Positions 7,967-20,425 of a DNA stretch of 20,425 nt are shown one piece after another. This DNA is from a virus. A program made the position numbers and the translations under genes. Within the stretch, counting starts at the first letter, position 1. Each line of letters begins with the position of its first letter. The notes beneath the pieces were generated by a model. The model ran no database searches. It was not told where the DNA came from and saw only the letters and a program-made list of their open reading frames with translations. The DNA lies in IMG/VR virus record IMGVR_UViG_3300024520_000602, positions 1 through 20,425 of that record; one strand, 5' to 3'.

Positions 7967-10900
7967 ATGGCAGAAAAATTAGATGTTCAACCAGTTGAAG
8001 AACTGGACATTCAGCCAGTTGAAGAACTGGACATTCAGCCCGTAGAAGCCGACCCCCCGCCAGACTTCAACTCCATGACAATGGAGGAAAAGGTGCAGCG
8101 ATACGGGGCGTATAATGCCGCGCCCCCAATCTCCAAGTGGGACGAGTTCAGCTATTGGTTTAGGAAACAAGTGACTCCGTTCATTGGGCCGTCAGAGCGG
8201 CAGATTGCGGAGGAAGGTGTTATGTGGACTGATCCCGTCACCGAGCAGCGCGGGGTAATGTACAAGCCGCTTGCCGACAAGTTTACCAAGCAGGGACTTT
8301 TTAACACCCCCCTCATAGGCGACCTCAAAAAGAAAGTCGGTATCGACGCCAAAGATTTAGAGGAATTTGGAGTGTCAGAGGAATGGGCCAAGGGAATTGC
8401 CGGAACCCAACACGGCATACTTGGTGCGACGGAACAGATCACAAATCCGCTAGTCGGGATGGCGATGGTAGCATCTGGCGGCGCACCATTGCTGGGTCGT
8501 ATATTTTCAGCCGGGTTTAGCGCACACATGGCTTCTGGGATACCGGATGTTGTAAAAACTTATAACGAAGCCATTGAGGCTGGCGACACGCAAGCCGCAG
8601 CGGAAGCCTTGACGGGCGGGGTGTTGCAAACATTTTTTGCAGTCAAAGCCGGGCAACACGCGCTAGGTAAAGGAGTTGCTTTAGAAGGCCCAAAACTCAA
8701 AAAACTTTTAACACACCAGATCAAAACCGAATACACTGGCCCACAGCTTCGCGTCATATACAACCGGGTGAACAAGGGCCAAGGCACTCCAGCGGAAGTG
8801 GAGATGGTTAAGGCTGTAAACGGTGAGATGCAACCGGGAGTGTTACTTAAAAAAGGAACCAAAACCACTTTTACCTCCACCGAGGCAAAGATAAAAAGCA
8901 AGTTCTGGAAAAACTATCTTGGCCTCGAAGACGTTAAGGTTCCAGTGGCAACCCGGCTCATCTCGGAAAAAGCTGGGATGAAAGCCCCGGTGGAAGCCCC
9001 GCCATCTGTCGGAAAATATCTCAAGCTGGAGGAAGCGCGGGTTCCAGTGATGCTTGCCGAATCCAAGATGGGAATTCCAGCGGGAACCAAGACTTCATCC
9101 ATGCCGCCGAAGGTGGAAGAACCCGATTGGTTTGGTAAGTCAATTGGCCCGGTTAAGAATGTCTACAAGAAATGGCTCACCTCCAAGGGGCGGCTTAAAT
9201 TCACCGACCCAACCAGCGGCCTCACCGTGGATGTTTATACCCGCAAGGGCGAAATGGGCGGCAACATTTTATCCGAACTAAAGCATCTGGATAACGTCAG
9301 CGCAAAACTTCATCGCGCCGAGAAAAAAGCCTATGGCAAAGACAACCCCAAGCCAGAAGACTTGATGGAGCGCATGAACTCCTTCTTGGCGCACGAGAAG
9401 GTGGACTTGCCGAAACCAATCAAGAAGGTCTTGACTGAAATGCGGACACACAAAAAAGGGTTGTCCAAACAAATCCAAAAATTAGTCACAGGAGAACTCA
9501 AATCTACTATCGGCGATAACATGGAGGTTTATCTTCATAGGTCGTATGAGATTTTTGATAACCCGAAATTTAAGGAGAAAATTCTAAAGGGTAAGAAGTT
9601 TGAGGGTTCGAGGTACGAAGTTGCAAAGGAATTCCTAGCCAACGAACGACAAGCCGATCTCATTGCCGAGGCCCAAAAGAAAGTGGAAGCTGGTGAACTA
9701 GCCAAACACCAGATAGATGGTTATGTGGATCGTCGCCTGTCTGGTGAGATGGAAGCCATGTTGAATGTGGCGGGGCGCGACATATTTGAAGCCATCCCGT
9801 CTTCGGGGCGGGTGCTGGATGTGGTCAAGAAACGGAAGAACATTCCAGTTGAAATTCGCGAACTATGGGGCGAATACAAAGACCCTTATGTAAACTATGC
9901 CCGCACCGTTACCAAGATGTCGCAATTCCTTGAGACAACCAAGTTCTATCAAGAACTACGCGAGGCCGGGCTGAATAGATTTTTATGGGAAAAACCTTTT
10001 GAGGGATTTTCAGAACAGATTGGTGGTGGCGAAAAATTTGCCGTCAAGAAGGATGGAAGTTTAGGCAAGAAACTGGCCAGTAATCCACGGCTCGCCCCAA
10101 TCGACGGACTTTACACAACCAAGGAACTGGCCAAAGCCTTCACTTCGCTGGACGAACTACAAGCCCCCTCTGGCCCGATAAGACTTTTAATGGCCCCGGC
10201 AGCGGCAGCAAACGTCAGTGCCACAGTCTTGAGCCATGTTACACAGGCTAGAAACTTTACTGGTGGCGTGATGATGGGGATGGCGAACAACCGGCTTTCC
10301 CCAAAACAAACCTATGAAGCCCTAAAAACAATCGGGGCAGACATAGTCAAACTAGATAACAAAGCGCAGCTTGAGAAAATTCAAGAATACGCGAAGCTGG
10401 ATTTCTTCGACCAAGCCGCCGTGCCAAGTGAAATGTTGGCCAGTATCAAGGATGTGCTTGGTAAGGATAAAAGCGCATGGCTAGAAGATGTTTCCAAGGG
10501 TCGCATTAGATTGGGGGCGGATGATCTGCCTACGGTGGCGCGAGGCTTGGTGAAAGCCGGTAAGTTGCCGTTTGAAGTTTATCAAGGGGTGGATTCTGCG
10601 TTTCGGATTGCCAACTTTGAAGTTGAACTTGCCCGGTATTCCAAGGCTCTCAAGATTGACCCCAAGAATCCACAACTTCGCCAAGAGGTTGCCAACATCA
10701 TCAAGGACACCTACCCGACCTATTCCAGAGTGCCGATGGCCATTAAGTCTTTGCGCCGGTTTCCACTCATGGGGGCGTTCGTTAGCTTCCCGGCAGAAGT
10801 GATCCGCACCAACTTAAACACTTTGAAGTTGGCGCATAAAGAAATGCGAACCCCCGGCTTGCGGGAAATAGGGGCAAAGCGGTTTGCGGCTTTAGCTGGA

Positions 10901-11857
10901 ACCACATTGCTTCCAGTAGTCACAAGCCAAGTTCTCAACAATCTGTCTGGAATTAGTTCAGAAGAAGAAAAAGCCATGCGCCGGTTTGTCCCGCCGTGGT
11001 CGAGGAACGGCAACCTACAAATCACAAAGGAAAAAAACGGCCACTACAATTACTTCGATCTAAAATACAGCGACCCCTACTCCTACCTCAAGGAGCCTTT
11101 AGTCGCAGCGATGCGAGCCGGGGGCGAGCCAGACGTACACTACTGGCAAGCCTTCGGCACACTTATCCAGCCATTCACGGATGAGAAGATATTTGCGGCC
11201 AAGCTGTTTGACATGGCTCGGAACACCACAGAATCGGGGCGAACAGTGTGGGATGAGAATGATTCACTGGACGAGCGCACAACCAAAATACTCACTCACC
11301 TTGGAGAATCAATCGTGCCGGGGAGCGCAAAGTCCATCAACCGTTTGTATAAAGCGGCCACCGATACGAAAGGCGACTTCGGGCGCGAGTACGATTTGGA
11401 ACACGAAGCCTTCGCGCAATTCGGGTTCCGCACATCCAAGCTGGATGTTGGGAAAAGCCTCGCCATTCACAAGTTGCCGCAATCGAAGCGCAAAATAAAC
11501 AGCTACTCTGGAGACTTCACAAGGGAGATGCGCCGAACGCAACTGAATGACGCACAACAACTGGAACTTTACACCAAGGTAAACGAAGACCGATTCAAGG
11601 AATGGCAAACCGTCCACCGCGACATTCAAGCGGCCCAAACCCTTGGAGTGGGGTTGGTAACGGTGGAACTTGCCTTGCAGAAAAGCGGCTTTAACAAAGA
11701 CGAACGAGAAGCCCTACGCAACGGAACCTTTATCCCTTACTTCCCAACCCCCGAAAAGGTGCTGGAAATCCAAACAGAAGGAAGAACCATTAACCCAGTT
11801 AATCTACTTGGCCGCTACACAGAACTACTAGCATCCCCACTCCTAAATGAAAACTAA
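7967..11857 (+). CDS. Large internal virion / DNA-ejection protein (gp16-like position)
   Basis: 1296 residues, the largest gene here. The N-terminus carries three 8-residue acidic repeats (DVQPVEEL, DIQPVEEL, DIQPVEAD) at residues 6-29. An N-terminal region (about 140-230) has Gly/Ala-rich hydrophobic stretches (NPLVGMAMVASGGAPLLGRI) typical of membrane-active ejection proteins. The rest is long, helical and charged. Residues 735-775 (GPIRLLMAPAAAANVSATVL) are another hydrophobic patch. I see no lytic transglycosylase E-S-x-x-N-P-type site such as that of T7 gp16. By size, order and composition it is the large component of the ejection tunnel. Alternative: a polyvalent or other giant virion protein. 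The next gene begins 5 bases downstream. Confidence 0.6.
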   Translation: MAEKLDVQPVEELDIQPVEELDIQPVEADPPPDFNSMTMEEKVQRYGAYNAAPPISKWDEFSYWFRKQVTPFIGPSERQIAEEGVMWTDPVTEQRGVMYKPLADKFTKQGLFNTPLIGDLKKKVGIDAKDLEEFGVSEEWAKGIAGTQHGILGATEQITNPLVGMAMVASGGAPLLGRIFSAGFSAHMASGIPDVVKTYNEAIEAGDTQAAAEALTGGVLQTFFAVKAGQHALGKGVALEGPKLKKLLTHQIKTEYTGPQLRVIYNRVNKGQGTPAEVEMVKAVNGEMQPGVLLKKGTKTTFTSTEAKIKSKFWKNYLGLEDVKVPVATRLISEKAGMKAPVEAPPSVGKYLKLEEARVPVMLAESKMGIPAGTKTSSMPPKVEEPDWFGKSIGPVKNVYKKWLTSKGRLKFTDPTSGLTVDVYTRKGEMGGNILSELKHLDNVSAKLHRAEKKAYGKDNPKPEDLMERMNSFLAHEKVDLPKPIKKVLTEMRTHKKGLSKQIQKLVTGELKSTIGDNMEVYLHRSYEIFDNPKFKEKILKGKKFEGSRYEVAKEFLANERQADLIAEAQKKVEAGELAKHQIDGYVDRRLSGEMEAMLNVAGRDIFEAIPSSGRVLDVVKKRKNIPVEIRELWGEYKDPYVNYARTVTKMSQFLETTKFYQELREAGLNRFLWEKPFEGFSEQIGGGEKFAVKKDGSLGKKLASNPRLAPIDGLYTTKELAKAFTSLDELQAPSGPIRLLMAPAAAANVSATVLSHVTQARNFTGGVMMGMANNRLSPKQTYEALKTIGADIVKLDNKAQLEKIQEYAKLDFFDQAAVPSEMLASIKDVLGKDKSAWLEDVSKGRIRLGADDLPTVARGLVKAGKLPFEVYQGVDSAFRIANFEVELARYSKALKIDPKNPQLRQEVANIIKDTYPTYSRVPMAIKSLRRFPLMGAFVSFPAEVIRTNLNTLKLAHKEMRTPGLREIGAKRFAALAGTTLLPVVTSQVLNNLSGISSEEEKAMRRFVPPWSRNGNLQITKEKNGHYNYFDLKYSDPYSYLKEPLVAAMRAGGEPDVHYWQAFGTLIQPFTDEKIFAAKLFDMARNTTESGRTVWDENDSLDERTTKILTHLGESIVPGSAKSINRLYKAATDTKGDFGREYDLEHEAFAQFGFRTSKLDVGKSLAIHKLPQSKRKINSYSGDFTREMRRTQLNDAQQLELYTKVNEDRFKEWQTVHRDIQAAQTLGVGLVTVELALQKSGFNKDEREALRNGTFIPYFPTPEKVLEIQTEGRTINPVNLLGRYTELLASPLLNEN
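7982..8053 (+). repeat. Three tandem 24-bp units in the large ejection-protein gene
   Basis: Units at 7982-8005, 8006-8029 and 8030-8053. The first two share CAGTTGAAGAACTG and differ at a few bases; the third diverges after CAGCC. They encode DVQPVEEL, DIQPVEEL and DIQPVEAD, so the repeat is both a DNA and a protein repeat at the extreme N-terminus. Copy-number change by slippage is plausible. Confidence 0.85.
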
Positions 11858-11862
11858 CTCCA

Positions 11863-12282
11863 GTGAACACAACAACACTAGGCACAATCGGGGAGCGACT
11901 CGTCGAGGCCGAGTTATTAAAACTAGGTTTTTGTGTCGCTCGCCCGGCGGTGGATGTTGACGGGTACGATTTACTGGCGGGAACTAACGCCCGCGAATAT
12001 CACAGACTCCAGATCAAGACTTGTCGGATTCCAGCGGAATGCAAAGGGAGCTACGGCTACCGCTACACCGCGCTCAAGAATAAAAAATCCGACTACTTCA
12101 TTTTTGTGTGCCTCATGCACAACACATTTTACATCGTCCCAACCGACCAAACAGCCGCCTCCATCCGACTCTCTGGCGACGGCAGTGGACAGTCCGAACT
12201 AGAAAAGTTTTTCGGCGCATGGCACATATTGAAACCAGCATCCGATGATAATGCGCCCACGGAAGTTGTTGATGCGGAGTAG
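11863..12282 (+). CDS. PD-(D/E)XK nuclease-like protein
   Basis: 139 residues from GTG 11863, 5 bases after the large virion gene. Residues 7-53 carry the fold signature: GTIGERLVEAELLKLGF with E11, then DVDGYDLL with D36, then LQIKT with Q50 and K52 as the (D/E/Q)xK pair. This is the pattern of the small PD-(D/E)XK families that include group I intron-type and Holliday-junction-like nucleases (PDDEXK_5 type). Residues 78-95 (DYFIFVCLMHNTFYIVP) add core strands. The C-terminal 20 residues are probably disordered. It could cut phage or host DNA, act in recombination, or be a free-standing homing-type nuclease beside the integrase. The start has no visible SD, so the true start might differ slightly. 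Confidence 0.65.
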   Translation: MNTTTLGTIGERLVEAELLKLGFCVARPAVDVDGYDLLAGTNAREYHRLQIKTCRIPAECKGSYGYRYTALKNKKSDYFIFVCLMHNTFYIVPTDQTAASIRLSGDGSGQSELEKFFGAWHILKPASDDNAPTEVVDAE

Positions 12283-12358
12283 GATGCGTTGACCCCCAAC
12301 CATTTGCTCTTTTTTTTGCTTGTTTTCTAAAAGCCGATTTTGTAGTTTCCATTTTGCG

Positions 12359-12380
12359 CCGAGTGCTATCCCCCGCTCGG
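12359..12380 (+). promoter_or_regulatory. Hairpin overlapping the integrase ribosome-binding region
   Basis: CCGAGTG (12359-12365) can pair with CGCTCGG (12374-12380), 7 bp with one G-U pair and an 8-base loop. The last two bases of the stem begin the SD-like GGAGG (12379-12383), 12 bases before the integrase ATG at 12396. If formed in RNA it could reduce integrase translation. An 8-base T-run at 12310-12317 lies further upstream and could belong to a weak terminator or a promoter; neither is clear. Confidence 0.4.
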
Positions 12381-12389
12381 AGGCTGGAA
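12376..12389 (+). repeat. 14-bp direct repeat, copy 1 (just before int)
   Basis: CTCGGAGGCTGGAA occurs here and again at 13496-13509 inside the 3' part of int (codons for His367 to Ile372). The two copies are 1120 bases apart and bracket nearly the whole integrase gene. This copy contains the integrase SD-like GGAGG. A 14-base match between two sites in 20 kb could be chance. Confidence 0.8.
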
Positions 12390-12395
12390 ACCAAA

Positions 12396-13568
12396 ATGAA
12401 CACCTATGACCCCGAAACCATTCCAATCCATTACATTGAAAACGGCAAGGTGCGCTTCATGTATAAGGGGCGGCATTACACCCTGTTCAAGCCGCAGTTA
12501 GGCGGCTCCTTCTACATTAAAATTCAGAAACAGGGGTATCGCAAAACCACCTCCCTCCACACCGACGATCCAGACTGGGCGGTGGCAATGGCTTTGGGGG
12601 TGATTGATTATATGCTGACGGGCGTTGAACCAGAAGCGTTGAAGGAACCGTCTCATGCGAGTGCGGATTTAGTCACGCGCTCCTATCGAGTTCTCGCGAT
12701 GCGGCATGGACTGAAGGAGCGCACGATTGAGGGAAACATTGGTGCGCTCAAGAAAATTATAGGTCGCCGCACTTCACTGAAAAATTTCCCCATGTCCCGG
12801 CTCACTGGAAAACTCGTCCGCGAATTTATTGACTCTGAACTAGACTCGGTGCGTGGACAAGGTGAGGCCGCAAGGCAACGCAAACTTCGCAGCATCCAGT
12901 CCTTATTGAAACAGGCAAAATCCATATTCAAAAAGTCGTTCCATTCTCGCTACGAAGATGCAGAAATTTACCTCGGCAACCTCGATGACTTCATGCTGGA
13001 ACAAACCGAGACTCCAGCCACGGTGGATAAAGAACCTCTGGAGGATGAAGTGGTGGAGGTGTTGGATGCGAAGGTGGAGGCGTTGAGTGAGGTGCGGCCC
13101 GACTTTCACGCTGCGTATCTGCTGGCCAAGTCCACGCTACGCCGGGGAGAAATCCAGCGGGCCAAGTGGGATTGGGTGCAGATGAAAAAAGGCCACCCGC
13201 ATATTGTCATGTCGGCGGATCAGAAGGGGAAGAAGCCCACGGCCATACCGCTCGACCCCAAAATATACGCCGCCCTCCAGCAATGGTATACATTAACTGA
13301 TGACAAGGAATACATCCTCCCCGAAAATGGTTGGACAGGCGAACGCTGCGGCTATTTTATGAAGGAACTGGATAAGTGGTTGAGGAACGAGGGTGGACTC
13401 AAAACCGACAAAACATTCCACGAACTCCGCGCCCACACACTCCACACGATTCGGGAGAAGTATGGGCTGGAAGTTGCGGCTACCGTGGGGCGTCACTCGG
13501 AGGCTGGAATCACCGCAAAACACTACACAGGCAAGAAGCAAATCCCTGCTGATTTCAGCTTTCAATAA
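12396..13568 (+). CDS. int: Tyrosine-family site-specific integrase
   Basis: 390 residues from ATG 12396 behind GGAGG; an in-frame TTG at 12354 would add 14 residues across the hairpin and is less likely. Residues about 90-185 form the core-binding helical (SAM-like) domain. The C-terminal catalytic domain shows Arg in TLRRGEI (R249), a Lys in QKGKKPTAIPL (K279 or K280), HELR (H342, R345), the second His in GRHSEAGI (H367) and the nucleophile Tyr in KHYTGK (Y377). Residues 1-55 contain an AP2-like or arm-binding-type N-terminus (VRFMYKGRHYTLFKP, GGSFYIKIQKQGYRKTTSL). This enzyme integrates the phage at an attachment site, so the phage is probably temperate. The attachment site itself was not identified. 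Confidence 0.92.
   Translation: MNTYDPETIPIHYIENGKVRFMYKGRHYTLFKPQLGGSFYIKIQKQGYRKTTSLHTDDPDWAVAMALGVIDYMLTGVEPEALKEPSHASADLVTRSYRVLAMRHGLKERTIEGNIGALKKIIGRRTSLKNFPMSRLTGKLVREFIDSELDSVRGQGEAARQRKLRSIQSLLKQAKSIFKKSFHSRYEDAEIYLGNLDDFMLEQTETPATVDKEPLEDEVVEVLDAKVEALSEVRPDFHAAYLLAKSTLRRGEIQRAKWDWVQMKKGHPHIVMSADQKGKKPTAIPLDPKIYAALQQWYTLTDDKEYILPENGWTGERCGYFMKELDKWLRNEGGLKTDKTFHELRAHTLHTIREKYGLEVAATVGRHSEAGITAKHYTGKKQIPADFSFQ
13496..13509 (+). repeat. 14-bp direct repeat, copy 2 (inside int)
   Basis: Second exact copy of CTCGGAGGCTGGAA, within the integrase motif GRHSEAGI. The flanking bases differ from copy 1, so the match is limited to 14 bases. Confidence 0.8.
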
Positions 13569-13643
13569 AATGATGGAAAAAATCGAAAATAAAACTTGTA
13601 AAATAATCGGTAGGAAGTCACCCTCTCGACGGCGTTGAAAACA

Positions 13644-13826
13644 ATGAACGACAAGGAATACACAATACTGGTGAAAATTAGCGCGGAACTCCGTGACGCC
13701 GCAAAGGCGCAATCGCGGGTTCTCGGCATTCGATTGAGTGAACTCTATCGCCAAGCCCTTACTTCCGGGCTGAACGAATTCCAGAACACTGACGCACTAG
13801 AGCGCATTAAAAACATTCCAGCATGA
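13644..13826 (+). CDS. Ribbon-helix-helix (Arc/CopG-like) DNA-binding protein
   Basis: 60 residues from ATG 13644 (TTG 13635 would add three). The layout is one short strand YTILVKIS (residues 6-13), helix A in ELRDAAKAQSRVLG and helix B in RLSELYRQALTSGLNEF, the full ribbon-helix-helix pattern; such proteins bind operators as dimers. It comes just after the integrase and a 75-base AT-rich gap and has no good SD, so it may be read by a separate promoter or at low level. As the only regulator-like gene next to int, it is a candidate for lysogeny or int control. It could also be an antitoxin-type regulator of the next gene. Confidence 0.65.
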   Translation: MNDKEYTILVKISAELRDAAKAQSRVLGIRLSELYRQALTSGLNEFQNTDALERIKNIPA

Positions 13827-13849
13827 AAAACGCCCCCCTCCAAAACAAC

Positions 13850-13889
13850 GGGTTGAGTCAGCGGGCGTGTGTCCGCGTTGGATCAACCC
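13850..13889 (+). promoter_or_regulatory. Two-tier hairpin between the RHH and nuclease genes
   Basis: GGGTTGA (13850-13856) pairs exactly with TCAACCC (13883-13889). Inside it GCGGG (13861-13865) can pair with TCCGC (13872-13876) around a CGTGTG loop. The element fills most of the gap between the RHH stop and the nuclease ATG at 13900. It has no U-run after it, so it is less like a terminator and more like an operator or a 5' leader structure. Confidence 0.5.
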
Positions 13890-13899
13890 CACTAATTTT

Positions 13900-14268
13900 A
13901 TGGGGGCAAAAAAGAAACAGCCGAAGCGGTCGGTTCTGGAGATTCGTTTCGCATATTTTTGGGGGATTATGGACGGGCCGAAACTCGTCGAGGAACTCGC
14001 CTTTCACCCGAAACGAAAATGGAGGTTCGATTTCGCACATCCAGCGACCAAAACCGCCATCGAGATTGAGGGCGGCGTCTGGAGCGGCGGGCGGCATACG
14101 AAACCGGCAGGGTTTACGAAGGATTGTGAAAAGTACAATGCCGCCGCTGCCGCTGGCTGGACTGTCTTTAGGCTCACCGGCTATCACATCAATAAGGAGC
14201 ATATTGCCCCGATAAAGGAGTTCATCCTATGCCAGAAGAACACGCGAAACATTCCCCCTCCCAACTGA
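13900..14268 (+). CDS. Small nuclease-like protein (Vsr/DUF559-type fold)
   Basis: 122 residues from ATG 13900; GTG 13867 would add 11 residues but lies inside the hairpin. Motifs in order: WRFDFAHP (D44), AIEIEGGVWSGGRH (E55, E57, R65, H66), KDCEKYN (D75, near residue 78) and AAGWTVFRLTGYHI. This is the pattern of DUF559/Vsr-like PD-(D/E)XK endonucleases, with D44 and the E-x-E pair as likely metal ligands. Phages carry such proteins next to replication genes; roles include repair, recombination or cutting of unmodified DNA. The basic N-terminus (GAKKKQPKRS) suits nucleic-acid binding. Its end overlaps the next gene by 40 bases. The family call is from motif reading. Confidence 0.7.
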   Translation: MGAKKKQPKRSVLEIRFAYFWGIMDGPKLVEELAFHPKRKWRFDFAHPATKTAIEIEGGVWSGGRHTKPAGFTKDCEKYNAAAAAGWTVFRLTGYHINKEHIAPIKEFILCQKNTRNIPPPN

Positions 14269-14399
14269 AGCACAAAAAAATCTGCCCGCAATGGACGAAC
14301 GACTCCAGCGGCGACACAACCGCCGCCGACGAAGGCACGATGCTGCATGATGTCATGGAGAAATGGGCCATTGCCATTAAGGAAGGGGATTTCAAGTGA
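14229..14399 (+). CDS. N-terminal part of a split RecB/Cas4-like (DUF2800) nuclease
   Basis: 56 residues from ATG 14229, with an AAAGGAG SD at 14214-14220 and good 8-base spacing. The sequence holds SPSQLKHKKICPQW (C19) and ADEGTMLHDVMEKW, which is how DUF2800 or Cas4-type exonucleases begin: a 'SxSxLxxxxxCPxxW' opening with the first Fe-S Cys, then the helix with EGTxxHxxxE. The reading frame stops at TGA 14397-14399, and the rest of the protein continues in the next gene in another frame, whose GTG overlaps the stop (GTGA 14396-14399). The two pieces may work as separate, coupled subunits, or the break may be a frameshift. Confidence 0.7.
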   Translation: MPEEHAKHSPSQLKHKKICPQWTNDSSGDTTAADEGTMLHDVMEKWAIAIKEGDFK

Positions 14400-15322
14400 C
14401 ATACGAATTGCCAACCCTCACAGACGAACACGCCACGCTGATTGGATGGTGCATGAAAAAGGTTGAGCCTCGACTGCGGCAAGCCAGCCAAATCCACGTT
14501 GAGTGTCGGCTGGAAATCCCCGACATAACGTGGGGAACCAGTGACGTTGTGCTGCTCACCGGCACACATATCACACTCATTGATTACAAATTCGGCAAGT
14601 GGGTTGTCGATGATCCGATAAACAATATGCAAGCCAAGGCGTACACGCTTGGCGCGTTCCACAAATTTCCAGAAGCCAAAACCGCCGAGTTTATTTTCCT
14701 AACGCCCCGGCATGAACTGGAACAATCGTCGAGGTTCGAGCGCGAGGAAGCGATGGGCTGGACGGACGAGTTTAAGATTATTGTTGAGCGAGCCGATGAC
14801 CCCTCCAGCCCGTACCGGCCCGACTCCGAAAACTGCCTATTTTGCGGGAGCAAATCCCGCTGCCCCGAATTACAAAAACGCGCTATGGACATTGCAGAAG
14901 ATTACGACGGGCTACTCCTACCAGAGTCAGCAAAAACGGCGGCACTCACCAACCCGGCCCAACTCCAGCGGGCCTTGGATGTGGCGTCTATCATGGAACG
15001 ATGGGCGAAGAACGTCCGCAGCACCGCACTCGAACTGCGCCTCGAAGGCGTGGAGATACCGGGCTATGAACTCAAACAAACTGCCGGGAACCGCAAGATC
15101 AAAGATGTGGCCAGCACATGGGGCGCACTCAAGGAGATCGTTCCACAGGAGGAGTTTCTGGAGGCGTGTTCCCTCACCATTGGGACGCTGGAAAAAAAGC
15201 TCAAGGAGCAAGCCCCGCGTGGGCAAAAACAAGAATTTGCCAAGTCCACCCTCGAAGTTCTGGACGATCTAGGACTCATCGAGCGTGGGAGGGACAAAAC
15301 ATACCTAACGAAACAACGATGA
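14396..15322 (+). CDS. C-terminal part of the split RecB/Cas4-like (DUF2800) nuclease
   Basis: 308 residues from GTG 14396, with GGAAGGGG (14381-14388) placed as an SD. The nuclease core is present: WGTSDVVLL (D50), then LIDYKFGKW (D63, K65), and QAKAYTLGA (Q79, Y83), the D-(D/E)xK-QxxxY set of RecB-type nucleases. The Fe-S cysteines follow as C147, C150 and C156 in CLFCGSKSRCPE; the fourth (C19) is in the preceding small ORF. The C-terminus (about 190-308) is a helical region including EIPGYELKQTAGNRKI. The full protein probably resects DNA ends during replication or recombination. The next gene begins inside the stop (ATGA at 15319-15322). Confidence 0.75.
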   Translation: MTYELPTLTDEHATLIGWCMKKVEPRLRQASQIHVECRLEIPDITWGTSDVVLLTGTHITLIDYKFGKWVVDDPINNMQAKAYTLGAFHKFPEAKTAEFIFLTPRHELEQSSRFEREEAMGWTDEFKIIVERADDPSSPYRPDSENCLFCGSKSRCPELQKRAMDIAEDYDGLLLPESAKTAALTNPAQLQRALDVASIMERWAKNVRSTALELRLEGVEIPGYELKQTAGNRKIKDVASTWGALKEIVPQEEFLEACSLTIGTLEKKLKEQAPRGQKQEFAKSTLEVLDDLGLIERGRDKTYLTKQR

Positions 15323-16035
15323 GTGAGAAAAAAAAGAAAAACGATAGCAGCGACAACGCTGAAAACACCACGGCAGTAGCCCTCCCCCAACCGGCGGCGG
15401 GTTCTGTCAGTGGAGAAATAGAAACAAGCGACTTGGTTGTGCCATCCCTCAAGATGGCTGCGAAAACTGGCGAGTTGGGCGAACTATTCATGCCCGGTTC
15501 ACTGGTGCTAAACGCCGAGTACGCGCTGTACGGGGCGCGAGCCGATGAGCCAGAGAAGAAAAAGGAAGACCCGGTTTGGCTCACGGTTCTCCACGCGAAA
15601 AAATCCTACTACGAACACACCGAGTATGGGTCTGGTGCGATGCCCAAAACCGCCGACACGCTGGACGAAGTGCTGGCTCAAGGTGGCTCACTCGAATGGG
15701 GGAAGGACGGCGCGAAGCCAACATGGAACCCGCAAGTGTGTTGCACCGTGCTGGTACGAGGGGACGATGAAGCCTACTTCCCGTGGGAGTTCGGCGACCA
15801 CCGCTACGCTATGGCCCGCTGGATTCTCTCCAGCTTCAGCGCATACACAAACGCCGCCAAACCCATCCTCACCGCTGCGGCCCTAAACCTCCGCGCCGGT
15901 CTGGAATACGGAAGTTGGGGACTAACCTCGGCCCTCAAGAAAAAGGGGGCTAATAGCTGGTACATCCCAGTGCTAACCACTGGAGAGAAAAACGACGAAA
16001 AATTCGCCACTTGGGCGCGAGAACTTACCCGCTGA
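15319..16035 (+). CDS. Phage replication-module protein, possibly ssDNA-binding
   Basis: 238 residues from ATG 15319, which overlaps the nuclease stop; the in-frame upstream extension to 15118 was dropped because it runs through the nuclease frame. The N-terminal 35 residues are low-complexity (SEKKKKNDSSDNAENTTAVA). The body (DLVVPSLKMAAKTGELGELF, VLNAEYALYG, VWLTVLHAKKSYYEH, CCTVLVRGDDEAYFPWEFGD) is compact and strand-rich. A helix-rich part with KPILTAAALNLRAGLEYGSW follows. It sits between a recombination-type nuclease and the DNA polymerase, where phages often encode their single-strand-binding protein (DUF2815 in DUF2800 phages). That role is inferred from position; no diagnostic motif is visible. 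A hairpin and G-rich gap follow the stop. Confidence 0.55.
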   Translation: MSEKKKKNDSSDNAENTTAVALPQPAAGSVSGEIETSDLVVPSLKMAAKTGELGELFMPGSLVLNAEYALYGARADEPEKKKEDPVWLTVLHAKKSYYEHTEYGSGAMPKTADTLDEVLAQGGSLEWGKDGAKPTWNPQVCCTVLVRGDDEAYFPWEFGDHRYAMARWILSSFSAYTNAAKPILTAAALNLRAGLEYGSWGLTSALKKKGANSWYIPVLTTGEKNDEKFATWARELTR

Positions 16036-16039
16036 CGGA

Positions 16040-16071
16040 GGGGTTGAGTGGGTGACGGGGTGGCGGCGGGG
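16040..16071 (+). promoter_or_regulatory. G-quadruplex motif in the gap before the polymerase
   Basis: Four G-runs on the + strand (16040-16043, 16050-16052, 16057-16060, 16068-16071) are separated by loops of 6, 4 and 7 bases, matching the G3+N1-7 rule. The third and fourth runs also lie in the 5' arm of the adjacent hairpin, so the two structures exclude each other. The element lies just after the preceding stop (16033-16035). Regulatory meaning is inferred. Confidence 0.55.
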
Positions 16072-16103
16072 TTTATTGGTTTGCCCGTCGCTGCCCCCAT
16101 TTT
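16057..16103 (+). terminator. GC-rich stem-loop with short U-run before the polymerase gene
   Basis: GGGGTGGCGGCGGG (16057-16070) can pair with CCCGTCGCTGCCCC (16084-16097), a 14-bp stem with 3 G-U pairs and a 13-base loop, followed by CATTTT (16098-16103). The shape fits an intrinsic terminator with a modest U-run or a strong leader structure. It ends directly next to AAGGAG and the polymerase ATG. Confidence 0.55.
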
Positions 16104-16109
16104 AAGGAG

Positions 16110-17834
16110 ATGATCGCAATAGACTTCGAGACATATTACGACGCCGAATGCACCGTTAAGGGACTCGGCCCCGATGCTTATTGTCGCCATCCGAAATTCG
16201 ATCCCTACATGGTGTCACTCTACGGGGATGGGATTGATTATGTTGGGCCGACCCAAGATGCGCCTTGGTGCAATATCCCAGCCGACGCACCGTTCGTGGC
16301 CCATAATGCAGCGTTCGATTCCACGGTGTTCGAGGCGGCACAGCGCATGGGGTATATCCCCGGCGACTTAATTCCAACATGGGACTGCTCCGCAAATCTC
16401 GCCGTGTACATCCAATGCCCGCGCAATCTCAAAGGCTTCGCGGAACAAATGTTGGGGGTTAAACCTGACAAATCGGTGCGGGACAACATGAAGGGCAAGC
16501 TCCCCGCCGACCTAGACGAACCCGAACTCAAAGCCCTCATCGAATATGCCCGGTACGACTCCGTTTACTGTCACGAACTTTGGCGGCTTTATGAAAAGTA
16601 TTGGCCTTACCACGAAAGAATTTTAGCCCGCCACACCATGACCAGTGGGCAACGCGGCATTCAAATTGATAAACCGAAACTAGATGCCGGGGTCGAGGTA
16701 CTTTATGAGATCAAGGAAGCGGCGGGGAAGAAAGTCCCGTGGGCCGAGGACGAGGAACCCATCAACTCTCTCAAACAACTCAAGATTTTTTGCGCCAAGG
16801 AAGACATACCGGCTCCAGTTAGCACCAACCAGAACGAACCAGAGTGTGTGGAATGGGAGGCCGAGTATGGTGACAAGTACCCGGTAGTGGCTGCGCTGCG
16901 CGATTGGCGAAAATCCAACCGGCTACTCCGGTTATTCCAGACCGTGAATACTCGACTGCGCGACGATGGAACGATGCCGTTTGGCCTCAAATACTTTGGC
17001 GCAACCCTCACGGGGCGTTGGTCAGGCGACACCGGCCTAAATATGCAGAATCTCCCACGGGGCGAGAGCTTCGGGATCGACACTCGCAGCTTGTTCATTC
17101 CACGGCCCGGCAAGAAATTTATCATTTGTGATCTGGCGCAGATCGAACCCCGCGTCATGGCGTGGCTCACCGACAACACCGAGATGATGGACTACGTTCG
17201 CAAAGGCGAGGACATCTACACCGCTCATGCGCTCTCTACGATGGGGCTGGACAAGGTGGACAAGGAAGCCCGGCAACTCGCCAAGATTCGGGTGCTGGGC
17301 TTGGGCTATGGATGTGGGGCCGCTCGATTCAAACAGATCGCCGATAATTGGGGCGTGACGCTATCCAGTGACGAGGCTGAACACACCGTCAAGGAGTACC
17401 GGCGCACGAATCCAGAAATCCTCAAGTTTTGGAGGCAACGGGAACGAGAATTTAAGAACGACGTAAACGAGAATCACTATTACGAACTCCCAAGCGGGCG
17501 GCACATTTGCTACTTCAATGTGCGCTACAAAAGCGACCAGTGGTTTGCCTCCATCACGCGGGGCGCAACTCCACGCCACTGGTATGGTGGGAAGCTGGCC
17601 GAGAATGTTGTGCAAGCCACCGCCCGCGACATATTTGCAGAACATTATTATGCGATTGTGCGAGCCGGGTTCGAGGTTATGTGGACAGTCCACGATGAGA
17701 TTATTGTGGAGGTTGACGAGGACGATACACAAGCCCGCGCCGAGATTCAGAATTTAATGTGCCGCACTCCAGAGTGGATCAAGGGATGCCCCGTTGCGGC
17801 AGAGGCATACGAGACGAAAGCATACACGAAATGA
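16110..17834 (+). CDS. polA: Family A DNA polymerase with 3'-5' exonuclease
   Basis: 574 residues from ATG 16110, the only standard start after the in-frame stop at 16053; AAGGAG (16104-16109) touches the ATG with no spacer, which is unusual. The exonuclease domain has D5/E7 in IDFETYY, AHNAAFD (D70) and YARYD (Y146, D150). The polymerase domain has TGRWSGDTGLNMQNLPR, motif A CDLAQIEPR (D341, E346), motif B RQLAKIRVLGLGYG (R388, K392) and motif C VHDE (H528-E530). The position equal to E. coli Phe762 is Leu396. There is no 5'-3' exonuclease domain, as in T7-like enzymes, and the protein is shorter than T7 gp5. It replicates the phage genome; its stop overlaps the next ATG (ATGA). Confidence 0.96.
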   Translation: MIAIDFETYYDAECTVKGLGPDAYCRHPKFDPYMVSLYGDGIDYVGPTQDAPWCNIPADAPFVAHNAAFDSTVFEAAQRMGYIPGDLIPTWDCSANLAVYIQCPRNLKGFAEQMLGVKPDKSVRDNMKGKLPADLDEPELKALIEYARYDSVYCHELWRLYEKYWPYHERILARHTMTSGQRGIQIDKPKLDAGVEVLYEIKEAAGKKVPWAEDEEPINSLKQLKIFCAKEDIPAPVSTNQNEPECVEWEAEYGDKYPVVAALRDWRKSNRLLRLFQTVNTRLRDDGTMPFGLKYFGATLTGRWSGDTGLNMQNLPRGESFGIDTRSLFIPRPGKKFIICDLAQIEPRVMAWLTDNTEMMDYVRKGEDIYTAHALSTMGLDKVDKEARQLAKIRVLGLGYGCGAARFKQIADNWGVTLSSDEAEHTVKEYRRTNPEILKFWRQREREFKNDVNENHYYELPSGRHICYFNVRYKSDQWFASITRGATPRHWYGGKLAENVVQATARDIFAEHYYAIVRAGFEVMWTVHDEIIVEVDEDDTQARAEIQNLMCRTPEWIKGCPVAAEAYETKAYTK

Positions 17835-18112
17835 AAACAGCACCACTAGACGATATATGCCGAAACAGACACAGCGGCAATGCGAACAGCATACGAGTAA
17901 ACCCGTCAGCGGCATTTAAAAAACGAGACAGGTCGAAAGTTTATGAAACCATTAAGCGTTGCGGGACGGGCATCACCTCCAAGGAAATCGCCAAGCTAAT
18001 GGATCGCCGGTTGAACTGTATAAGTGGTCGGATTTCCGAACTAAAACAGGCGGGGTTAGTAAAAGTTGACGGTAGACGCGGTGATTGCGGAATCCTCTAT
18101 GTTGAACGATGA
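17831..18112 (+). CDS. Winged helix-turn-helix protein
   Basis: 93 residues from ATG 17831, which overlaps the polymerase stop as ATGA; an in-frame upstream start at 17759 would lie inside the polymerase and is not needed. Residues 34-80 (RSKVYETIKRCGTGITSKEI, AKLMDRRLNCISGRISELKQ, AGLVKVDG) follow the winged helix-turn-helix plan: a helix, the 'TSKEIAKLM' recognition part, a second helix and then the wing. Small proteins of this kind in phage replication modules bind DNA and may act as regulators or origin-binding factors. The N-terminal 30 residues are basic and probably flexible. Coupling to the polymerase suggests a replication-linked job, not proven. Confidence 0.6.
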   Translation: MKTAPLDDICRNRHSGNANSIRVNPSAAFKKRDRSKVYETIKRCGTGITSKEIAKLMDRRLNCISGRISELKQAGLVKVDGRRGDCGILYVER

Positions 18113-18113
18113 C

Positions 18114-18257
18114 ATGGAATACGACTGTATAGACGAGGAACGAGAGGAGACTTGCCAGTATTGCAAAGGGCGCGGCTACATGACCGTGGACTCTGGCGGG
18201 GCAGGGCCAGCCTATGCGTGTCCAGATTGTTCCAGTGGGGAGGATGAGGATGAATGA
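18114..18257 (+). CDS. Small DnaJ-type zinc ribbon protein
   Basis: 47 residues from ATG 18114, one base after the stop of the winged-helix gene; ATG 18099 (five residues longer) is an alternative. The protein has CQYCKGRGY (C14, C17) and CPDC (C37, C40), a CxxCxGxG plus CxxC pair like one zinc module of DnaJ. Both ends are acidic (DCIDEEREE and SSGEDEDE). Such small zinc ribbons occur alone in many phages; in HMO-2011-type phages a DnaJ-like piece is found within the polymerase, so a free copy beside the polymerase is worth noting. Function is unknown. Its end overlaps the start of the next gene. Confidence 0.6.
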   Translation: MEYDCIDEEREETCQYCKGRGYMTVDSGGAGPAYACPDCSSGEDEDE

Positions 18258-18447
18258 CTTCGAGCATATCTGGCAAATTTATTGCGGCGTGCGCGGCCCA
18301 TACACCAAATATCAAGAGGAATACAGAGTTCTCGGCAACCCAATCAGAACAGAAACAGCCGCGCATTTGTTTTTCACAGTTCGAGACAAAAGCTATGAGG
18401 AAAACGCGGGCGCAGTTAGCCGAGTGATACTTGGTTTATGTATATGA
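18250..18447 (+). CDS. Small hypothetical protein
   Basis: 65 residues from ATG 18250, preceded by GGGGAGG (18237-18243) with about 6 bases of spacing; ATG 18244 lies too close to that SD. The sequence is MNDFEHIWQIYCGVRGPYTK to the end in AGAVSRVILGLCI. No membrane helix, metal site or known motif is visible. It overlaps the zinc-ribbon stop (18255-18257), and its own stop overlaps the next small ORF (ATGA at 18444-18447), so it is part of a coupled run of small genes behind the polymerase. I do not recognise it. Confidence 0.5.
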   Translation: MNDFEHIWQIYCGVRGPYTKYQEEYRVLGNPIRTETAAHLFFTVRDKSYEENAGAVSRVILGLCI

Positions 18448-18536
18448 TGAATAATTTTGCGGTGGCAGAACAACAACAAAACTCGCCAGTAAGAAAGGCT
18501 GGCTATACTTACGGTTTTGGGGTTTGGGCTAGGTAA
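18444..18536 (+). CDS. Very small ORF coupled to the previous gene, unknown
   Basis: 30 residues from ATG 18444 (or 18447) to TAA 18534-18536: starts MMNNFAVAEQQQNS and ends GYTYGFGVWAR. Its start overlaps the preceding stop as ATGATGA, the same coupling used by neighbouring genes, which is the main reason to list it. Composition is not obviously random (Gln run, aromatic C-terminus). It may be a real micropeptide or untranslated spacer. Confidence 0.35.
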   Translation: MMNNFAVAEQQQNSPVRKAGYTYGFGVWAR

Positions 18537-18550
18537 CAACCACCGCATAC

Positions 18551-18578
18551 CCCCGGCTCGCGTGTGCGATGACCGGGG
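18551..18578 (+). promoter_or_regulatory. Hairpin covering the SD of the coiled-coil gene
   Basis: CCCCGG (18551-18556) pairs exactly with CCGGGG (18573-18578). Inside, TCGC (18558-18561) pairs with GCGA (18566-18569) around a GTGT loop. The 3' strand contains most of GGGGAG (18575-18580), the SD of ATG 18590, and the loop side contains the alternative ATG 18569. Folding would hide the ribosome site. There is no U-run, so it is not a terminator. Confidence 0.5.
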
Positions 18579-18589
18579 AGACTTTAGAC

Positions 18590-18835
18590 ATGACTGAAAA
18601 CGAACAACACGAAATCGAAGTGCTGGAGGAACGAGTGCGCGACCTTGAACGCCAACTGGCGCAGGAGGAAGCATCACACTTAACTGAAGTGGAAACATTG
18701 AAGCACAACCACCAGACCGAGGTGGAAATATTGAAGCATGATCTCATGCGGGCCAACCTAAAGGGGCGGCTCCAACTCCAAGACGAGATCGCTGAACGCA
18801 GAACAGCCCGGCGGGCAGCACAATTCGCGGACTAA
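18590..18835 (+). CDS. Small coiled-coil protein
   Basis: 81 residues from ATG 18590, chosen over ATG 18569 because GGGGAG (18575-18580) is correctly spaced for it and because 18569 lies in the hairpin. Residues 3-60 have heptad-like Leu/Val/Glu spacing (HEIEVLEERVRDLERQLAQE) and contain two copies of an 11-residue unit, TEVETLKHNHQ and TEVEILKHDLM. The C-terminus is basic (RRTARRAAQFAD). Coiled-coil dimerisation with a basic tail suggests a DNA- or protein-bridging accessory of the replisome, but this is inference. The next gene starts directly after its stop. Confidence 0.6.
   Translation: MTENEQHEIEVLEERVRDLERQLAQEEASHLTEVETLKHNHQTEVEILKHDLMRANLKGRLQLQDEIAERRTARRAAQFAD
18683..18748 (+). 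repeat. Imperfect 33-bp tandem duplication in the coiled-coil gene
   Basis: Units 18683-18715 and 18716-18748 encode TEVETLKHNHQ and TEVEILKHDLM. They match at most bases through the first two thirds and then diverge, so this is an old internal duplication adding 11 residues (one hendecad) to the coil. Confidence 0.7.
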
Positions 18836-19666
18836 ATGCCAACCACTCTCCCTCCACGAATCAAAGACTGCCCATCTAGCGGCACGGGTGTTCATAAATG
18901 GATATTCCACGCCGCGTGTGTGTTGGACAAGGCGGGCTACGCCGATGCCGATATTGAGGAGTGGGTTGGGAAGCACTCTAGTCGCCGCCTCCAGACGGGC
19001 GAAGTCCAGAATGCCCTCAAAACAATCCGCAATTCCGTTGTCAAGGTGCGCCCCCGCTGGCCCTTCCCCAACCCCATTGACACTAAACGAATCGCCAACC
19101 TCGGCGGCGGCATGGATGCACTGGTGAACTCGTCGATGGTCGAGTGCGCGAATGCCGGGGAAGCACTCCAGCAATTATTCGAGGGCGACCCGCTGCTCTG
19201 CATTGGGTTGAGTTCCAGAGAATTTGCCACCAAGCCCCGCACCCTCTGGAACCCCTCTCGATACCAATTCATAGTCCCATCTCCCATGTCGGATAAGTGG
19301 GGCGAAACTCAAGCGGGCAAACGATCCCAACACACCCTCTCCAACACCGGCCCGCGCCACTACCTCGTTGTGGAATTTGACGAAGGCTCTCACGACTCCC
19401 ATGCCTCAATCATCCAACACCTAGCCCTCCACGCCCCCCTCTGCATGGCCGTGGACTCTGGAGGGAAGTCGATTCATGCTTGGTTCGATGTGCGAGAGCG
19501 GAGCGAGGCGGCTACGCGGAAATTCTTCCAGCTTGCCTGTCAACTCGGTGCAGACCCCGCCACTTGGACAAAATCTCAATTTGTAAGAATGCCCCAAGGT
19601 CGCCGGGCAAATGGCAACCTCCAAAAAATAATCCACTTCAACCCCCCAAAATATGCTCCCTTTTGA
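18836..19666 (+). CDS. AEP-like primase with PriCT-like N-terminus
   Basis: 276 residues, starting directly after the coiled-coil stop. Residues 1-70 (SSGTGVHKWIFHAACVLDKA then DADIEEWVGKHS) resemble a PriCT-type domain, here at the N-terminus. The C-terminal half has catalytic-type motifs of the archaeo-eukaryotic primase superfamily: LVVEFDEG (E180, D182), DSGGKSIHAWF (S208 to H214) and the closing FVRMPQGRRANGNLQKIIHF. The domain order and small size are unusual. The protein overlaps the next gene, a helicase-like ORF, by 14 bases, as expected for a primase-helicase pair. It would make RNA or DNA primers for the family A polymerase. Motif reading only; no structural check. Confidence 0.65.
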   Translation: MPTTLPPRIKDCPSSGTGVHKWIFHAACVLDKAGYADADIEEWVGKHSSRRLQTGEVQNALKTIRNSVVKVRPRWPFPNPIDTKRIANLGGGMDALVNSSMVECANAGEALQQLFEGDPLLCIGLSSREFATKPRTLWNPSRYQFIVPSPMSDKWGETQAGKRSQHTLSNTGPRHYLVVEFDEGSHDSHASIIQHLALHAPLCMAVDSGGKSIHAWFDVRERSEAATRKFFQLACQLGADPATWTKSQFVRMPQGRRANGNLQKIIHFNPPKYAPF

Positions 19667-20425
19667 AATATTCCACCATCCCTTATCGGGCCGATTCTTC
19701 ATGCGCGACAACCGCGAACGCTTCCTCTCCCTCAACGGCGATGCTGTTAAGAGGCAGTTAAAGCTGCGCGGGGTTCGAGGCGCGAAGTTGCAGGGCGAGA
19801 ATATGAGCGACGTTGATCGTGTGCTGGCTGAATGCACGCACGAATATTCCTGCGAATATGCCGGGCCACTCGCGGGCCACAAGGCTGGCGTGCTGATGTT
19901 TAAGGGTAATCGGGTGCTGGTTACGGACGATCCAGTTGTCATTAAGGGTGAGCCGCGCCCGTTTCCGATGGTTGAGAAAATCATCACTGAACTATTCCAC
20001 GCGGTTGATCCAGACCAACCCCAGCACGTTTTCGGGTGGCTCCACATGGCGCGGCTGATGATGAAAGCAGGGAAGCCCATGCCGGGGCAAGCACTCGTTA
20101 TGGCTGGCCCAAGAAATTGTGGCAAAAATCTATTCCAAGACCTGATCACTGAAATGCTGGGTGGCCGCGTTGCGAGGCCATATCGGTATATGACGGGGAA
20201 AAGCGAATTCAACGCTGATCTATTCCAAGCGGAACATCTGATGATAGCCGATGAAGCCCCCTATCAAGACATTGCATCGAGGCGGCTGTTTGGGACTCGA
20301 ATTAAGGATTTTGCAGTGAATCAATTCCAGAGTTGTCATGGCAAACACAAAGATGCCCTCACTCTCGCCCCATGTTGGCGACTCACGGTTTCCACGAATG
20401 ATGAATCCGAGAATTTGATAATGCT
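19653..20425 (+). CDS. SF3-like / DUF5906-type helicase, 3' end missing
   Basis: 257 residues visible from ATG 19653 to the window edge. The N-terminal 100 residues are a leader domain (FEIFHHPLSGRFFMRDNRER). The ATPase core begins near residue 145: Walker A is GPRNCGKN (G152, K158, N159), Walker B is LMIADE (D200, E201), and a sensor-type strand WRLTVSTNDE (N249) follows. These fit SF3-type phage and plasmid helicases paired with AEP-like primases. The Walker A Ser/Thr is replaced by Asn159. Just after Walker A comes LITEMLGGR, then YMTGKSEFNADLFQAEHL, a stretch I associate with marine phage members. The enzyme would unwind DNA at the fork; its C-terminus lies outside the window. Confidence 0.75.
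   Translation, partial: MLPFEIFHHPLSGRFFMRDNRERFLSLNGDAVKRQLKLRGVRGAKLQGENMSDVDRVLAECTHEYSCEYAGPLAGHKAGVLMFKGNRVLVTDDPVVIKGEPRPFPMVEKIITELFHAVDPDQPQHVFGWLHMARLMMKAGKPMPGQALVMAGPRNCGKNLFQDLITEMLGGRVARPYRYMTGKSEFNADLFQAEHLMIADEAPYQDIASRRLFGTRIKDFAVNQFQSCHGKHKDALTLAPCWRLTVSTNDESENLIM

Follow-up and report, generated by a model that had tools for sequence, protein, structure and literature searches.

A conserved two-hairpin RNA element at the junction of an SSB-like gene and a DNA polymerase gene in a virus record and its relatives

Introduction

In phage T4, the gp32 operator is described as a pair of helices stacked coaxially, after which UUAA(A)-rich RNA covers the ribosome site, and the gp43 operator as a hairpin (PMC3014915). 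The same source places an RNase E site near the stop codon of gene 32 of T4, itself an ssb gene. Structured RNA located directly after a stop codon has been termed highly unusual in bacteria (PMC2864571).

Here we analyse a virus record of 20,425 bases, hereafter the window, in which an SSB-like gene (ssb) is followed by a gene for a family A DNA polymerase (pol). The initial annotation of the gap between these genes described a G-quadruplex overlapping a 14-bp hairpin, and proposed that the two structures switch between read-through and termination, set the polymerase level, or mark a replication-linked site. We find that the ssb-pol junction carries a cis-acting RNA element composed of two adjacent hairpins, H1 and H2, which are probably stacked. 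This covariation-supported element replaces the speculative G-quadruplex at a junction where phages need one replication protein in far larger amounts than the other.

Results

Genes around the junction

The features of the junction are listed in Table 1. The start of the SSB-like gene was placed according to its ATGA overlap with the DUF2800 gene, and its product gave no match to Pfam or PHROG. In Foldseek, the AF2 (AlphaFold) model of the protein (pLDDT 79) gave weak PDB matches only, RPA and SSB folds among them, and the better matches were to phage proteins, most of them unnamed. Because some of the weak matches are to RPA and SSB folds, the putative function is expressed here by the name SSB-like. 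A tyrosine-recombinase-type integrase gene (PF00589, positions 12354-13568) directly precedes the replication genes, and is adjoined by a gene for a PD-(D/E)XK protein (PF11645, 11863-12282).

Table 1. Features at the ssb-pol junction of the window.
Feature	Position	Strand	Remarks
DUF2800/PD-(D/E)XK-type exonuclease gene	14396-15322		Upstream of the SSB-like gene, which it overlaps
SSB-like gene	15319-16035	+	239 codons including stop; ORF call; OB-fold-like model
Hairpin H1	16025-16055	+	16025-16036 pairs with 16043-16045 and 16047-16055; folding
Four G-runs fitting G3+N1-7	16040-16071	+	Not conserved beyond closest clade
Hairpin H2	16057-16097	+	14 bp, 16057-16070 with 16084-16097; folding, covariation
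A/U-rich spacer, H2 to pol ATG	16098-16109	+
Family A DNA polymerase (pol)	16110-17834	+	PF00476; phrog_17

Megablast of positions 10000-20425 against the records of named phages (50,697) gave no match, and neither near nor distant DNA matches were found among named phages; host genomes searched with the pol and ssb alignments gave no match either. A scan of positions 10426-20425 identified no terminator-like site on the plus strand, and the last promoter-like match on this strand lies at 13300-13328, for which reason pol is probably expressed by upstream read-through.

Structure and stability of the element

The 14-bp stem of H2 pairs as annotated and shares two of the G-runs. It includes three G-U pairs, closes a U-rich loop of 13 nt (16071-16083) and ends 12 nt ahead of the pol ATG. 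The stem had been said to end in UUUU; the four U's are present (16100-16103), but they are separated from the stem by CA, so that the T-run does not abut it. H1, a second hairpin that the initial annotation missed, was revealed by folding the relatives. It contains the last codons of ssb and the stop codon, the latter (16033-16035) within its 5' arm, and its loop is GGAGGG (16037-16042). Inspection by eye gave no consistent partner for a pseudoknot that would link the H1 loop to H2.

With a folding energy of -44.5, the element ranks first in stability among 8138 stretches of 83 nt on both strands, the best value elsewhere being -38.6, and H2 alone has a z-score of -5.0 relative to shuffled sequences. 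Reading the pol frame upstream by eye, we considered a coding function for the element: the frame is open through it in L004 and L005 (numbers with the prefix L denote loci of relatives), but a TGA closes it in the window and a TAA in L002, and the element is therefore not coding. A search against Rfam 15 with the window and 14 relative loci gave no match above the gathering threshold, and an E-value scan returned chance-level hits only.

Conservation in relatives

Relatives were gathered by polymerase searches. Their polymerases are 91-94% (L002-L005), 71-72% (L019, L020), 66-67% (L021-L023), 61% (L028) and 54-55% (L024-L027 and L096) identical to that of the window. H2 is kept in seven relatives with 61-94% polymerase identity, and covariation was measured over these and the window (L002-L005, L019, L020 and L028; eight loci in total). 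Each of the five closest records, the window included, has one copy of the element.

Across the eight sequences, 97.3% of the cells in H2 are paired, as compared to 87.3% after shuffling. Two-sided changes occur at 6 of the 14 pairs, and the covariation is 0.551 as compared to 0.334 in the shuffled alignments. Each of the five measures was reached by 0-2 of 500 shuffles, and all slid controls were far lower. With a covariation that exceeds both types of control, the element behaves as a conserved cis-acting structured RNA, although the independent changes are few since the polymerases of five of the eight loci are 91-100% identical. For individual loci, the z-scores of H2 range from -4.7 to -6.5, and none of 300 shuffles was as stable. 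H1 folds in all eight loci with z-scores from -1.6 to -3.8, the weakest being L002, and its pairing (partly assigned by hand) persists where the C-terminal codons of ssb differ. Only 64% of H1 is paired on a plain MAFFT alignment, because the 3' arm is misaligned.

A covariance model built from seven sequences recovered L028, which was absent from the build, with an E-value of 1.9e-4, and found no other new locus below E 0.4 in 96 sources. The junction in L021-L023 folds into a different arrangement and was missed by this model, for which the hit in L022 (E 0.45) is located elsewhere. Another alignment, A6, includes three chance-level hits (E 0.45-0.79), and counts derived from it were not relied on. 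In L002, L003, L004, L019 and L020, no other 83-nt stretch of the locus exceeds the element in stability, while 3 of 1248 other stretches in L005 and 1 of 1528 in L028 are more stable.

Position relative to the ssb stop codon

The distance from the ssb stop codon to the start of H2 is 19-22 nt in seven loci and 33 nt in L028, and the gap between H1 and H2 is 0-2 nt in seven loci. The next start codon is located about 10-30 nt beyond the element in most loci and more than 100 nt beyond it in L003. The ORF that follows is pol in the window, L002, L004 and L005, a 17-codon ORF in L019 and L020, and another gene in L028. The near-fixed spacing to the ssb stop codon, combined with the variable next gene and its spacing, indicates that the element belongs to the 3' end of ssb.

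We also surveyed the ssb 3' end in the loci that have an ssb homologue, 63 in number and reduced to 27 representatives at 80% identity. In 12 of the 27, the 123 nt across the stop codon were within the top 5% of locus stability, where about 1.4 would be expected; they were not exceptionally stable in the other 15, L025 and L096 among them. A conserved ORF of 17-20 codons (MQLELFTEIDGEYVYWQ / MQLQLFTIDTNGDYVYWHRD) overlaps the polymerase start in L019 (2951-3004), L020, L021 (1242-1304), L022 and L023, and is missing from the clade of the window.

A second structured RNA near ssb

A second RNA, which folds into a three-way junction, follows ssb in L003 (2907-2982), L024 (2334-2421), L025 (2275-2353), L026 (2795-2873), L027 (2500-2578) and L096 (2868-2950), and is also found in most of L165-L211. 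It consists of GGUACA, a GC-closed hairpin with the loop UAYUAAGAY, a variable arm and UUGANCGCC, which closes the outer stem (GGUACA ... GCUAYUAAGAYGC ... UUGANCGCC); its segments can also be given as GGUACA, the GCUAUUAAGAUGC hairpin and UUGAUCGCC. In L003, H1 and H2 come first, and the second RNA is contained within an insertion of about 100 nt relative to the window (2894-3000), between H2 and pol, which has its own Shine-Dalgarno-like GAGG ahead of the pol ATG. In loci other than L003, it is mostly located behind another hairpin.

A pattern scan for this RNA identified 48 viral stretches, one of which (L179) is without the rest of the motif. Over 28 non-redundant sequences, 92.6% of the cells are paired and the covariation is 0.544 as compared to 0.157 after shuffling, a value reached by none of 500 shuffles. 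The corresponding model gave 66 matches in 73 sources, of which 19 contain two copies, with matches in 6 of 31 sources derived from polymerase searches and in 41 of 42 derived from the pattern; there was no match in the window. The first neighbour belongs to one protein family in 20 of 25 distinct loci, many of them near-identical, and two tested members of this family match the PHROG SSB family (E 7e-6 and 8e-5). The RNA frequently lies ahead of a polymerase gene. Where the SSB-type gene lies just before the RNA, the next gene tested is a polymerase (L170), and where it lies just after, the preceding gene tested is Sak4-like (L168). The RNA gave no match to Rfam 15, and no description of it was found in literature searches on structured RNA near ssb. 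The three-way-junction RNA shows that the ssb-pol junction attracts structured RNAs.

Proposed function and alternative explanations

The element probably tunes both replication genes through their common mRNA. In the reading that we prefer, with a probability of roughly 0.4, it delimits the ssb message or protects it, and restricts the polymerase. On a polycistronic message, it would mark the 3' end of the ssb cistron and shield it against exonucleases or processing, and would lower the passage of expression into pol, giving much SSB and little polymerase. Ribosomes that finish the translation of ssb would open H1, so that H1 and H2 would stack fully only in the absence of ssb translation. 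The RNase E site near the stop codon of T4 gene 32 is in keeping with this reading. The number of T's in the 8 nt after the stem ranges from 1 to 5 across the eight loci, with no abutting T-run, and it is this poor U-tract, together with the probable reliance of pol on read-through, that makes us favour a boundary or stability element benefiting ssb over pol. The earlier suggestion that an RNA structure ahead of pol could set the polymerase level gains support from the conserved hairpins.

The main rival to the boundary or stability reading is an autogenous operator of the T4 type. By analogy with gp32 and gp43, which act on their own mRNAs, SSB or polymerase would bind to the stacked hairpins, with their U-rich loop and A/U-rich spacer, and block the initiation of pol. 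The gp32 operator and the gp43 hairpin, as presented in PMC3014915, offer a precedent, a TTTAA or TTAAA stretch follows H2 in seven of the eight loci, and the 13-nt loop of H2 (GUUUAUUGGUUUG) is the same in the window and L028, whose stems differ and whose polymerases are only 61% identical. However, the element is located after the ssb stop codon rather than before the ssb start codon, and the next ORF varies among the loci. We consider an operator unlikely overall; the version directed at pol is conceivable because the downstream gene is often pol.

Less likely again is a partial hairpin-dependent terminator or pause that would reduce the transcription of pol. The G+C stem is very stable, some T's are present downstream in several loci, and Bacteroides phage BT638P2, with a polymerase 27% identical to that of the window, has a terminator-like hairpin with a UUUUU tail in the gap before its polymerase gene (L213:1432-1470). 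In the set studied here, however, the stem is not directly followed by a T-run, the first 8 nt contain a single T in L005, L019 and L020, and H2 is absent from the list of the consensus scan, which with its loop limit of 8 would pass over a loop of 13 nt. A G+C hairpin followed directly by a U-tract, as in an intrinsic terminator, was thus not recovered, and the termination half of the proposed read-through switch has weak support at most.

The stacked H1 and H2 could also form a candidate RNase III processing site, judged by the geometry of a duplex of about 25 bp. The short gap between the hairpins in seven loci fits with such a site, but the stems do not form an uninterrupted duplex and L028 has 33 nt from the stop codon to H2, so that we regard processing by this enzyme as improbable.

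A split ribosome-binding site, in which H2 draws the distant GGAGG of the H1 loop toward the pol ATG, is very improbable. L002 and L004 have no Shine-Dalgarno sequence before pol, AAGGAG in the window directly abuts the ATG (spacing 0), and T4 genes 25 and 38 provide a precedent in PMC3014915. Yet about 25-27 nt remain between GGAGG and ATG after the removal of H2, as compared to 5 and 11 nt in T4 according to that source, and GGAG is lost in L019, L020 and L028; no Shine-Dalgarno sequence at a working distance was thus found.

A replication or recombination site at the DNA level, such as a cruciform or a hairpin in single-stranded DNA on a G-rich strand, would suit the location at the entry to the replication genes. 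However, 24 of the 109 standard-paired cells in H2 are G-U, which are mismatches in DNA, and the antisense strand folds less stably for both hairpins in all eight loci, by 4.7-16.9 kcal/mol for H2. These observations fit with selection on the sense RNA, and the hairpin fits sense RNA only. The GC skew is about 0.02 across 15-17.5 kb. The replication-linked site of the initial annotation is accordingly disfavoured, and the chance that the element acts as DNA is very slim.

The four annotated G-runs are present (16040-43, 16050-52, 16057-60 and 16068-71, with loops of 6, 4 and 7 nt). For this composition, the expectation is 0.6 G-quadruplex regions per window over the two strands, and at least one occurred in 44.6% of the 500 windows simulated, so that the match alone is ordinary. 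Runs 1 and 2 lie in H1, which means that all four are paired or looped in the hairpins. Of 16 loci, four satisfy the strict four-run rule, namely the window, L003, L004 and L005, all within the clade with 91-100% polymerase identity. The rule fails in L002, the fifth member of this clade, and in all 11 more distant loci; allowing loops of up to 12 nt adds L019, L020 and L028, for 7 of 16. In L002, the fourth run is interrupted by an A that pairs with U (G-C to A-U), whereby the stem is kept and the quadruplex is lost. C-to-U changes opposite the G arm leave its pairs intact, whereas most changes within the G arm would break them; judging by the pair table, wobble pairing would thus account for the conserved runs, with no need for a quadruplex. 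Although the G-rich segment in isolation favours the quadruplex (-18.5 versus -2.0 without it), G4-aware folding retained both hairpins in 7 of 7 sequences. A literature search on G-quadruplexes in phages listed nothing of use. What the relatives have kept is the hairpins and not four runs of G3 or more, and a quadruplex/hairpin switch is the least credible explanation of all.

Discussion

The G-runs at this junction provide an example of how wobble pairing can preserve such runs without any quadruplex. A broader proposal is that the ssb-pol junction in many uncultivated phages serves as a dedicated site for structured cis-RNAs, which would detect SSB or polymerase and keep the replication proteins in balance, and that the three-way-junction RNA, often in tandem near the SSB genes of unrelated phages, would represent a new family of autogenous-control RNAs. 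We hold this to be doubtful, if somewhat less so than the operator considered above. With a second widespread RNA next to phage ssb genes, post-transcriptional control of replication proteins would become testable beyond T4.

Several known systems resemble the element in part. Like the split ribosome-binding sites of T4 genes 25 and 38, it places a hairpin between a Shine-Dalgarno-like sequence and an AUG at an intercistronic junction, but the residual spacing of about 25-27 nt differs from the 5-11 nt given in PMC3014915, and GGAG is not conserved. The STAXI motif, as described in PMC2864571, is likewise a structured RNA-like element near ssb genes; it is a repeated pseudoknot, unlike the element described here, which has no Rfam hit. 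The L17 downstream element, a 3' UTR RNA, shares the location of structured RNA right after a stop codon, but it has another sequence and another host, and our element is without an Rfam match.

The remaining comparison is with the operators of T4 genes 32 and 43. In the present case, the structure extends across the ssb stop codon and lies before pol, and no pseudoknot such as that of gene 32 was found. T4 gp43 is a family B polymerase, whereas the polymerase of the window belongs to family A. What the systems have in common is structured mRNA next to phage ssb and polymerase genes, with stacked helices followed by A/U-rich RNA.
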